Assembly: GCA_944390495.1 (NCBI GenBank)
Contig: CALXQE010000013.1
Location: 1-64,000 of the forward strand
Length of the DNA: 64,000 nt
Origin: an uncultured Clostridia bacterium
GTDB taxonomy: Bacteria > Bacillota > Clostridia > UBA1381
Direction of reading: 5' to 3'
The translations under genes and the position numbers were made by a program. The notes below the pieces were generated by a model. That model was not told the DNA's origin. It searched no databases and saw only the letters and a list, made by a program, of their open reading frames with translations. How positions within the stretch are numbered: the first letter of the stretch is position 1; every line of letters begins with the position of its first letter. Shown piece by piece: positions 8,514-62,838 of this stretch.

Positions 8514-9002
8514 TTAAAATCCTAATCTTTTTTTATTTTTAATTAAAAAGGGTAATAAAATTGCTGATGGTATCAAACTCATAGCCCATTGTATAGGTGA
8601 TGAAATAAGCGATATAAGTGCCGTTTCATATCCAAGCAACGGAATCTCAGAAATAAAATACCCTACAGTAACTATTACAAGTGCTGATAATGCAACTATT
8701 ACAAATCTTAGTGCAGTCTGGGTTTTATATAAGATTTTACCTATTATAAAGCCCATAAATCCTTTAATTATCAGTGTTGGAATACAAAATATTGCAAATC
8801 CGGAAATTAAATCTGCAAGGCTGTGTCCTATTGCACCCACAATCATACCAGCAACTGGTCCCATGAGAATTGCTGCTACATATATTATACAATCTCCAAA
8901 ATGTACATACCCTCCACCAACAGGTACTTTCGGAAAAAAAGTTAATACACACGCTAATGCTGTTAAAATTGCAATGTGAGTAATAAAATTTGTCCTGTTC
9001 AT
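8514..9002 (-). CDS. ECF transporter S component (substrate unknown)
   Basis: A 162-residue integral membrane protein with five to six hydrophobic segments and the ECF S-component pattern (VGGGYVHFGDC, AAILMGPVAGM, GHSLADLISG, TLIIKGFMG). S components bind a vitamin or micronutrient and share an energising module encoded elsewhere. AAGGAGAT precedes the ATG. It starts 14 nt after nrdG, so it is the last gene of an nrdD-nrdG-ECF operon. That association suggests a substrate linked to nucleotide or deoxynucleotide metabolism, or to a cofactor, but this is inference. Riboflavin or another vitamin remains possible. Confidence 0.75.
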   Translation of the reverse strand: MNRTNFITHIAILTALACVLTFFPKVPVGGGYVHFGDCIIYVAAILMGPVAGMIVGAIGHSLADLISGFAIFCIPTLIIKGFMGFIIGKILYKTQTALRFVIVALSALVIVTVGYFISEIPLLGYETALISLISSPIQWAMSLIPSAILLPFLIKNKKRLGF

Positions 9003-58921: not shown

Positions 58922-59752
58922 TTAATGATGATAGTCTGATGGATTTATACCAATATATTTTTTAAAGGTTTTACTAAAATAATATATATCAGAAAAACCT
59001 ACAATTTCTGATGTCTCTGTCACCGAACAGCCATTTAACAATAATTGTTTTGCTTTATTCATACGTATATTGTTTAAATATGTAATAGGTGTTTGATTAG
59101 TTATTGATTTAAAAATACGTACCAAATAAGAAACACTAATATTTTCTTGTTTAGCTAAATCTGAAATACTTATATCTTCAGAAAAATGTTTAGTCATATA
59201 TTTTATAATGTTATCTACTCTTATTTTATTTTTGTAGTTAATATCTCTATTCTTGGTTGAAAACATAAACAAATCTAAAATATCAATAAATATTTTTCTT
59301 TCTTCTTGATGGTTTAGTACGGTATTTGAAATATGTACCCTAAACAACCGATCAAACATAGATATTAATTTATCAAGTATATGCTCATCATCTATATGTG
59401 TAATAAAATCAATAGGAAGCTTTACGTCAGTAAAACTCCAATTATTATATGGTGGTTCATTATGGAAAATAGGAATAGTATATACAAAATTAACACCATA
59501 GCATTTTAATAAATTATTGGGGTTTGTTGATATAGAACGGCTATCTCCTAAACTGTAAAATACAAAATCTCCGCGATGAACAATATATTTTTTATTATTA
59601 TGTATAAATGTTCCTTCTCCCTCGTAAATCAGCATAATATTGTAGTATGTAAGATATTTTTCGTTATAACGCCATTCTGCCCATGTATGTCTGTTAATAA
59701 CCATCTGAATATCAAAAAAAATATTTTGCATAAGTTCCCTGTCACTATTCAT
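58922..59752 (-). CDS. AraC-family regulator with cupin-like sensor domain
   Basis: A 276-residue regulator. An N-terminal beta-rich, cupin-like domain (about 15-150: MLIYEGEGTFIHNNKKYIVH) would bind a sugar. The C-terminal double helix-turn-helix (about 175-276) has ISISDLAKQENISVSYLVRI and SEIVGFSDIYYFSKTFKKY. ATG 59752 has AAGAGGAT upstream. The open frame to 59827 would read through the predicted promoter and is rejected. It is divergent from the interrupted BNR gene and is the obvious candidate to control it, in response to a plant-wall sugar (inferred). Confidence 0.85.
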   Translation of the reverse strand: MNSDRELMQNIFFDIQMVINRHTWAEWRYNEKYLTYYNIMLIYEGEGTFIHNNKKYIVHRGDFVFYSLGDSRSISTNPNNLLKCYGVNFVYTIPIFHNEPPYNNWSFTDVKLPIDFITHIDDEHILDKLISMFDRLFRVHISNTVLNHQEERKIFIDILDLFMFSTKNRDINYKNKIRVDNIIKYMTKHFSEDISISDLAKQENISVSYLVRIFKSITNQTPITYLNNIRMNKAKQLLLNGCSVTETSEIVGFSDIYYFSKTFKKYIGINPSDYHH

Positions 59753-59766
59753 TATCTTATCCTCTT

Positions 59767-59802
59767 TACTAATATTTGTATTAAATAATACAAATATTAG
59801 TA
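59767..59802. repeat. Perfect 16-bp inverted repeat over the araC -10 and start site
   Basis: Arms 59767-59782 and 59787-59802 are perfect complements (outer bases TACTAATATTTGTATT) around a 4-nt centre. The right arm overlaps the predicted araC -10 (59799-59804) and start site (near 59792). The left arm abuts the araC RBS. This placement suggests an autoregulatory operator. Confidence 0.7.
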
Positions 59803-59827
59803 TATATTGCATTCTACAAAAAGTCAA
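59799..59827 (-). promoter_or_regulatory. Sigma-A promoter of the AraC-family gene
   Basis: On the minus strand, TTGACT (59822-59827), 17-bp spacer, TATACT (59799-59804). The -10 lies at the edge of the large inverted repeat. Confidence 0.55.
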
Positions 59828-59896
59828 TATACTGTATAGTTAAATAAAACCTTACAAACAATAATTTGTCTAAAAAATTACAAGGAGGAATTAAAA

Positions 59897-62386
59897 ATGA
59901 ATTTAAAAAAGTATATTGTTTCGGTTTGGGTCATGATAATGTCTGTTACAACTGTAAACTTCACACAAGTACATGCAGCCATAGCAGACTATACATGTAA
60001 TTTAGTATCATACGGACATAGTGGTAGTGCAAGCGGTACCGGTTTATTTTTAGGTGCAATAGGTAAAGAAAATTTAGATGTCGGTTCACCTGACCGTGCT
60101 CCGTTTATATCCGGAGTTACAGGCAATAATTCCGTAGAAGTAGGCTCATCAAGAGTTGGTGCCTTGGAATTTTCAGTTGATGGAAGTATTGATCCTAATT
60201 CAATCGTTTCTGCAACTATGAACGTATATGTAAACAGCATAAATCAAAATTTTAAAAACAGTGATGACTGGATGTTTTTAGCTGCTTATGAAACAGAAAA
60301 TCCATCTCTTACATATTCTGTCGGAGGAATGGATGAAAGTCTTTATCCTGCAATTAATAACGACTACTCTTACGAAGCGGTTATGTGGAGTAATGAACGC
60401 TGTTCTAAATCCAATCTTGGTTGGAAAACAATAGATGTAAAACGTGCAGTGGTACATGCGTTAGAAAAAGACGGAGGTAAAAGTGATGAAGTAAAAGTGG
60501 TCATAAGACTTCACGTTCCTGCATGCGGACTTAACGTATCTGTCGCATGACAAGTTCCATCTATATCCGTTAAAACAGACGAAAGTGTAAACGGCATTAT
60601 TAAAACAGTAGATCAGAACGGAAATAGTATATTACCCGACAAAGAATTTTCATCCGGTATAGGTGAATTCTCTTATTACGAAATAATAGATAAAGAACTT
60701 AATATTAATGATGTCCTGTATCTATTTGACAGTAATAAATCAATTACAAATATAACAATGGAGAAAGGAAAAGAAAACGTAATCGTTTTAGTTTATAACA
60801 ATACAGGAGAAATGAGAAAATACAGCGGTACAACATTAATTGATGACGGTGCAACCTGTTGGTTTGCAGATCCAAGAAGCGTTACTTTTGAACACGAAGA
60901 CATTTTTGAAAATGATACTCTTGTTCTTCCGGCAAGCAGTAAAACTATAGTTGGTGCTATTGATGACAGTGGTACAGTAAAGGCTGTGCAGTACGACAAT
61001 ATTACAGATGAGAAAAAGGAAATTATAATAGATACCGGATTTGAGCCTGATGATCATAACAATCCGACGTTTTTATATTTACCTGATCACAGAATTATGG
61101 TGTTTTGGTCAAAACACACAAGTGAAGAATACTGGTACTATCGTGTAACACAAGAACCTGATAATCTTACTACTTTAGGCGAAGAAAAATGTGTATCAGT
61201 AGAGGGCTATGGAGATTTCACTTATCCTTCTCCGTTTTATATGAGTGATGCACCTGATTCATTCTTTATATGTTGGAGAGGCGTGAATTGGCATCCTACA
61301 ATAGCAAAGTATTCTCTGCCAAATGAAAATGACAATATTGTCTGCGAAAAAGAGCCAACACAAATAGTTCAAACAATTGGACAAAGACCTTATGTCAAAT
61401 ATGAATCAAACGGAAAAGATAAAATATATTTCACATTCATAACAGCACATCCGGATAACAATTATCCTAACTGGGTTTATTACAGTGAAATTGATATAAA
61501 TACGTTTGATCTGTATAATATTGAAGGTGATATATTATGCGAAGGAGAAAATTTACCACTGGGAAAAGATGAACAAATTAACACATCATCAGATTACGGT
61601 TCTTTAACTGTTGATAATCCTGATAATAAACGTGACTGGGTTTGGGATATTGCAGTTGATAAAGACGGATCAATAGTAATATTGTTTACTCAAATATCGA
61701 ACGATAAATCCCAGCATGATTACTATTATGCAAAATAGAATAAGGAAACAAGAACATGGGATAAAACATATATAGCAAATGGTGGTGGCTGGTTCCATCA
61801 AAATGACAGCGGAAAAGAAAAATGCTATTCAGGCGGTATGTGTCTTGACCATTCAGATCCATCTTTAGTATATGTATCAAAACCGACCGAGGGATTATAT
61901 GGAAATATTTATGAAATATGGGAATTAAAAATGGAAGATATGGAAGTTGTGAGCGAAACACAGATTACCGAAAATTCACAATTCAACAATGTCCGTCCAT
62001 TTGTAGCAAAAGGTAGTTCTCCTGATGATTATCTAAGACTTACTTGGATGAATGGCTTGTATTATTATTGGGTAAGCAGCAGTTCTCTTCCAAATGCATT
62101 CCCTACAAGTATTATGACTCACTATAATAGACCTTCACTTGATGCAGATGTAACAAAAACAGAAAACGGTGTAGATATAAACATTAGTAAGAATAATATA
62201 GATGATTTAAATTTAATAATTGTTGCAGGATATAACGAAAACGGAATATTAACTGATATAAAATTTGCAGATAGTGATAATGTAACTATTGAAAATACTG
62301 AGTTAAAATCAATTAAAGTATTTTGTTTAGAAAATCTTGAAACTCTAAAACCTATAACTACGTCAATATATAAAGAGTTAGTTTAA
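59897..62386 (+). pseudogene. Secreted BNR-repeat/carbohydrate-binding protein gene with two in-frame stops
   Basis: One frame of 830 codons is open from ATG 59897 (AAGGAGG upstream) to TAA 62384, except for TGA at 60548-60550 and TAG at 61736-61738. There is no frameshift. The first part (217 codons) has a signal peptide (ending VHAA) and a beta-sandwich, carbohydrate-binding-like domain. The middle part (codons 219-613) and the last part (615-829) form a BNR_4-like beta-propeller (DDHNNPTFLYLPDHRIMVFW, WVWDIAVDKDGSI, YYYAK-stop-NKETRTWDK) with a C-terminal beta domain. The TAG falls where this family commonly has Trp. Both stops could come from TGG by a single G-to-A change. Probably a recent pseudogene of polysaccharide use; only the 217-residue first part would normally be made. 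Confidence 0.75.
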
Positions 62387-62499
62387 AATTTAGCCGTAAA
62401 TATAATAATACTCCATTAACAATATTTAATAAAATTCATATAATAAAAGTGAGTCATCTTAATCTTGAGACTCAAAAAATGTTAAAGGTGATTTTGAAT

Positions 62500-62838
62500 A
62501 TGGCTGAAATTTTTAACGAACCACAAGACCAAACCTGTCCTACAACAGCATACCAGTTATCATCTGTTTGTGTACCTGTTACAGTATCACCATTTGCAAA
62601 AACAGGTGTTACTTCAACCAAGTGCTGTGGTACATCTGTTGTAATACCCGGTAAAAATACTTGCGATGGTATAAAAAATGGTCAGTGTGTATTCACAGTT
62701 GTACAGGATATATGCGTTGAAGTTCCGGTAGAATTTGGTGCTGTTGCTTCTGTTGGTGACAATTATGTAAATTGTATTGATTCATCTGCTGATGATATTT
62801 GTACAAATTGCGATGACATAAACCCTGATAATCTTTAA
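62500..62838 (+). CDS. Small cysteine-rich protein of unknown function
   Basis: A 112-residue protein with ten cysteines and no signal peptide or membrane helix. Recurring features are VCVPVTVSPFAKTG, TKCCGTSVV, NGQCVFTVVQDICVEVPVEF and an acidic C-terminus (DDICTNCDDINPDNL). I recall similar short Cys-rich proteins in clostridia but cannot name a function; a spore-coat or surface role is only a guess. The start is ATG 62500 with AAAGGTGAT upstream. The frame is open from GTG 62449 without an RBS. An 11-nt repeat flanks the gene (62433-62443, 62850-62860). A terminator follows. Confidence 0.6.
   Translation: MAEIFNEPQDQTCPTTAYQLSSVCVPVTVSPFAKTGVTSTKCCGTSVVIPGKNTCDGIKNGQCVFTVVQDICVEVPVEFGAVASVGDNYVNCIDSSADDICTNCDDINPDNL

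Follow-up and report, generated by a model that had tools for sequence, protein, structure and literature searches.

In-frame stop codons are found in many bacterial genes, and carbohydrate metabolism is the second most frequent category among those affected (Belinky et al. 2021, PMC7918605). For some of these stops a reduced expression with kept function has been proposed, and the evidence for this rests on stops common to different species. In-frame UGA may also be recoded from stop to Trp by variants of tRNA-Trp (PMC13092985). The BNR_4 family of propeller proteins includes the PL25 ulvan lyases (PMC13193363).

Here, we report a BNR_4 gene interrupted by one TGA and one TAG in a stretch of 64,000 nucleotides (the window) from an uncultured Clostridia bacterium. 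It resembles known bacterial nonsense pseudogenes and null alleles at strain level, such as those with the in-frame stops in the survey of Belinky et al. (PMC7918605), in that its stops are single-base changes, its frame is otherwise intact, it is a dispensable carbohydrate gene and no long-term persistence is visible for it. It differs from them in carrying two stops of different kinds. The gene thus fits the picture drawn in that survey, without the sharing of stops between species that would support function. Very probably it is a recently inactivated gene for a secreted propeller protein, its null allele being either fixed or confined to the strain level, in a genome undergoing a wider loss of secreted-carbohydrate genes.

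The reading frame and its two internal stops

Translation of window positions 59897-62386 gives a single frame of 829 codons in which the only internal stops are codon 218 and codon 614. With A and T at 0.32 each, about 7% of codons drawn at random should be stops, which makes roughly 58 over the 829 codons; the 2490 bases contain neither a frameshift nor a third internal stop. The interrupted frame is real and far from chance. Its features, together with the divergent neighbour, are as follows.

58922..59827, minus strand: divergently oriented neighbour, an AraC-family regulator with an intact frame (HTH_18, E 4.1e-20)
59881..59889, plus strand: Shine-Dalgarno-like caaggagga ahead of the start codon (ATG, 59897) (from the sequence)
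59897..60547, plus strand: segment 1, a signal peptide followed by an N-terminal domain of carbohydrate-binding-like type that is interrupted ahead of its last predicted strand (47% identity, residues 30-228, with a domain found in congener protein L003)
60548..60550, plus strand: in-frame TGA (codon 218), in a variable stretch where relatives have Gly, Ala or Pro and neither Trp nor a stop (alignment)
60551..61735, plus strand: segment 2, a linker together with the greater part of the BNR_4 propeller (PF15892, E 1.9e-37)
61736..61738, plus strand: in-frame TAG (codon 614), inside the BNR_4 match, Trp (TGG) in 5/5 relatives (alignment and profile match)
61739..62146, plus strand: first part of segment 3, end of the propeller, alignable with every relative as far as about residue 750 (alignment)
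62147..62383, plus strand: second part of segment 3, C-terminal domain, the aBig_2 and Laminin_G_3 domains (or more) that precede it in relatives being missing here (32.5% identity over 80 amino acids to L009 residues 948-1027)
62384..62386, plus strand: natural stop TAA (translation)

Segment 1 thus begins with a predicted signal peptide and is preceded by a ribosome-binding site. Codon-usage coding scores were 0.204, 0.207 and 0.206 for segments 1, 2 and 3, within the range of the intact long open reading frames of the genome, and the best wrong-frame control scored lower (0.096). The first-pass annotation had proposed one BNR_4-type gene in a single frame without an indel, with codon content still coding past each stop; translation and the PF15892 match bear out the former and the equal segment scores the latter. 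Segment 2 by itself reached 129.5 bits against the BNR_4 profile (cut-off 27.3). When the stops were read as residues the score rose to 134.7 bits, the match running from residue 359 to residue 627 across the TAG and covering positions 10-270 of the 272 in the profile. The gene accordingly belongs to BNR_4 by a profile score above the curated cut-off. The solved BNR_4 structures gave no sequence match to the interrupted protein, and a fold model of it (mean pLDDT 47) was of too low a quality to locate the stops in the structure; its PDB fold matches were largely propellers, with unreliable scores. Directly downstream, at 62449-62838, lies a frame for a Cys-rich protein of 129 residues with no match in Pfam or NCBIfam.

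Intact relatives and the predicted role of the protein

Homologues lacking sequence that corresponds to the segments downstream of the stops had been named beforehand as an observation that would speak against an interrupted gene. The homologues were examined in this respect, and their alignment, which extends over residues 7-773, crosses both stops, so that intact counterparts exist on either side of each stop, as a nonsense pseudogene requires. Two of them are intact relatives from Clostridia MAGs (L005, from water-buffalo caecum, 63% identity, and L006, 62% identity). A third, L009, stems from a genome of the same family (G036), has 64-66% identity and is cut by a contig end, while two from Bacteroidales MAGs (L007 and L008, 46-48% identity) align in the propeller part only. 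All five are free of stops through the sites that they cover. Neither stop is thus seen in any of the five relatives, and the conservation expected of a programmed or regulatory read-through site is not found among them. The same-family relative is the closest of that family and is split over two contig ends of its own assembly (L009 and L017, on contigs 20 and 84 of G036; residues 2-133 and 115-749).

The two stop sites differ in these alignments. That the TAG occupies a position where BNR_4-type proteins usually have Trp was confirmed, TGG being present in every relative and lying one G-to-A change away from TAG. An equivalent origin of the TGA from TGG, also proposed, was not upheld: in this column the codons of the Clostridia-type relatives are for Gly (GGC, GGA) or Ala (GCG), or in L006 an adjacent Pro, and Trp was rejected for this site as none of the relatives has it there. 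The TGA does not mark a neat domain boundary. It precedes the last strand of the N-terminal domain, and since the copy of this domain in L003 runs on beyond the TGA position before it ends, the stop appears to remove that strand.

Architecture differs as well, in frame. The relatives have aBig_2 and Laminin_G_3 domains between the propeller and the C-terminal domain (L006 has more), and the window gene is without this part, its last 80 residues matching the C-terminal domain of L009. As for the gene itself, no further copy was found in its own genome and the full gene is missing from 15 congeners, one of which has only the N-terminal domain, within another protein; the gene is therefore dispensable in the genus.

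The intact protein would most likely be secreted and act on a polysaccharide of pectin or arabinan type, either as a lyase or as a binding protein, judging from its family, from the surroundings of its relatives and from the divergent AraC regulator beside the gene. Genes neighbouring the relatives encode an arabinofuranosidase, GH16, GH43 and PL11-type (rhamnogalacturonan-lyase) enzymes and further BNR_4 proteins, and these neighbourhoods agree with the pectin-type substrate proposed earlier and support it indirectly. The PL25 ulvan lyases are comparable through the near full-length BNR_4 profile match given above, whereas the neighbours of the window gene's relatives suggest a terrestrial substrate of pectin or arabinan type.

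Probable inactivation and its setting in the genome

By the proposed course of events, the gene would once have encoded a secreted propeller protein binding or cutting plant-type polysaccharide. Two independent point mutations would then have converted TGG to TAG at codon 614 and a sense codon to TGA at codon 218. Translation would now yield at most a piece of 217 residues that is deprived of the last strand of its own domain. These mutations may have become fixed in the lineage or may represent a null allele at strain level, and they would form part of a wider loss, together with the interruption of the genome's only other BNR_4 gene and of one gene of rhamnogalacturonan-lyase type.

The age of such an inactivation can be approached in several ways. 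About 5.2% of the single-base changes possible in the gene create a stop, and two stops would then correspond to about 39 neutral substitutions (95% range 5-139). The chance of zero frameshifts was estimated at about 4-38%, depending on the frameshift rate that is assumed. The branch of the window protein is not clearly longer than those of its relatives. Changes unique to the window lineage, which is basal among the four compared, were mildly raised (48 of 142, p 0.02), and segment 3 showed a mild, non-significant excess of unique changes. As a measure of constraint dN/dS was discarded as uninformative, synonymous sites being saturated. The lack of indels, the undropped coding scores and the ordinary branch fit a very recent death of the gene, and they fit a strain-level allele, read-through or error as well.

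A survey for other interrupted genes covered 653 kb of the 2.32 Mb genome and 535 open reading frames of at least 120 codons, and it detects in-frame stops and not frameshifts. Apart from pairs of ordinary adjacent genes, it brought up just two further interrupted genes. One is a PL11-type, YesW-like gene of rhamnogalacturonan-lyase type (L076) with a TGA at positions 434-436 of contig C62, inside an insertion that is absent from relatives; the contig begins inside the gene. The second, on the minus strand of contig C50 (L091), is the genome's one remaining BNR_4 gene and has a TAA at about position 8876, where an intact relative has Tyr. This gene retains only 73 of the 272 domain positions and has lost its 3' part, and its frame ends next to a quinolinate-synthase-like frame. 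Both BNR_4 genes of the genome are thus broken. The TAA and the lost 3' end of the C50 gene are hard to obtain through read-through of UGA or UAG and easy to obtain through decay, and they point to decay rather than to a code specific to certain stops. In another genome of the family (G030), a PL11-type relative at C80:4613-5611 carries an internal TGA and an internal TAA, and decay of such genes is therefore not unique to the window genome. A plasmid search gave no match, and an apparent frame of 11448 residues in a congener was set aside as masked N.

Errors of assembly or sequencing, or a minority-strain variant that entered a metagenome consensus, might also have produced the two stops, the gene then being intact in most cells. 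The draft genome comprises 113 contigs and is probably a metagenome assembly, because its nearest named relatives are MAGs, and the frame, the codon usage and the protein branch all resemble those of a live gene. Random errors, however, should strike genes of all kinds. All three interrupted genes are of the secreted carbohydrate type, a class to which a crude signal-peptide heuristic assigns roughly 10-14% of coding length, and three out of three would fall in this class by chance with a probability of about 0.001-0.003 (post hoc and approximate). This argues against random sequencing errors, and the loss of most of the BNR_4 domain from the C50 gene is not a base-call error. Assembly error is for these reasons disfavoured, and we consider it an unlikely source of the stops. 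As a broken gene, the interrupted gene carries little weight beyond correct annotation, but it provides a modest example of gut bacteria losing secreted polysaccharide enzymes, both BNR_4 genes being broken here while other species keep intact ones.

Read-through and re-initiation as possible alternatives

Of the options first put forward for the gene, recent death fits best, and read-through found no support, as no suppressor machinery was detected and the tRNA-Trp is normal. A low level of full translation through both UGA and UAG, with expression lowered and function kept in the manner proposed by Belinky et al. (PMC7918605), would account for the missing indels and the apparently maintained constraint, and it would suit the rank of carbohydrate metabolism in that survey. 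Unlike the evidence presented there, neither stop is common to any relative, and the loss of product would be compounded over a series of two different stops. The second BNR_4 gene of the genome has a TAA, and a clear RNA signal was not seen around either stop of the window gene. Only weak folds follow the TGA (z -2.2) and precede the TAG (z -3.0), and the latter is accounted for by the coding sequence and not conserved in L005. Taken together, we regard such low-level translation as very unlikely.

The decoding apparatus was likewise that of an ordinary genome. A global change of the code, earlier held to be excluded, is indeed ruled out by the stop usage of 230 long open reading frames in 445 kb (TAA 182, TGA 29, TAG 19) and by the presence of both release-factor genes, prfA (RF1) and prfB (RF2); prfB carries the 5' in-frame TGA that is usual for this autoregulated gene. 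ARAGORN, applied to the 43 tRNA matches, revealed no anticodon TCA, CTA or TTA among them, in a draft that is about 97% complete and may have missed one tRNA. The only tRNA-Trp is of the CCA type, with an anticodon stem of 5 bp, A9 and G24. The best matches to SelB (177.7 of 242 bits) and PylS (23.9 of 178 bits) remained below the cut-offs. Stop-codon reassignment would call for a cognate suppressor tRNA or a missing release factor, and insertion of selenocysteine or pyrrolysine for SelB or PylS; the genome searches revealed none of these, nor a tRNA-Trp with a 4-bp stem or of Hirsh type. The window gene shares with the recoded genes of PMC13092985 a TGA within a coding frame. In contrast to these, its genome has a tRNA-Trp without the features linked to UGA reading, TGA serves as a stop, and the TGA of the window gene is not at a Trp position. 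A UGA-specific mechanism common to this gene and the PL11-type gene on C62 was also rejected, as relatives of the latter lack the insertion that holds its TGA, and the broken BNR_4 gene on C50 is interrupted by TAA. That UGA and UAG are read at a useful level by some unrecognised mechanism, limited to some secreted carbohydrate genes and dampening their expression, is highly improbable. Read-through, if true, would be a real surprise, with two different serial stops suppressed without a detectable suppressor tRNA.

Least credible is a split gene in which re-initiation yields one polypeptide per segment: in-frame ATGs are available at 60758 and 61838, but no convincing Shine-Dalgarno-like sequence precedes either, the breaks fall inside folded domains, a signal peptide is present on the first piece only and no relative is split.

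Elsewhere in the genome, genes for tRNA-Pro, tRNA-Thr and tRNA-Tyr occur twice, about 2.2 kb apart (L025/L026, G000:C62:39484-42012), which suggests a local duplication.
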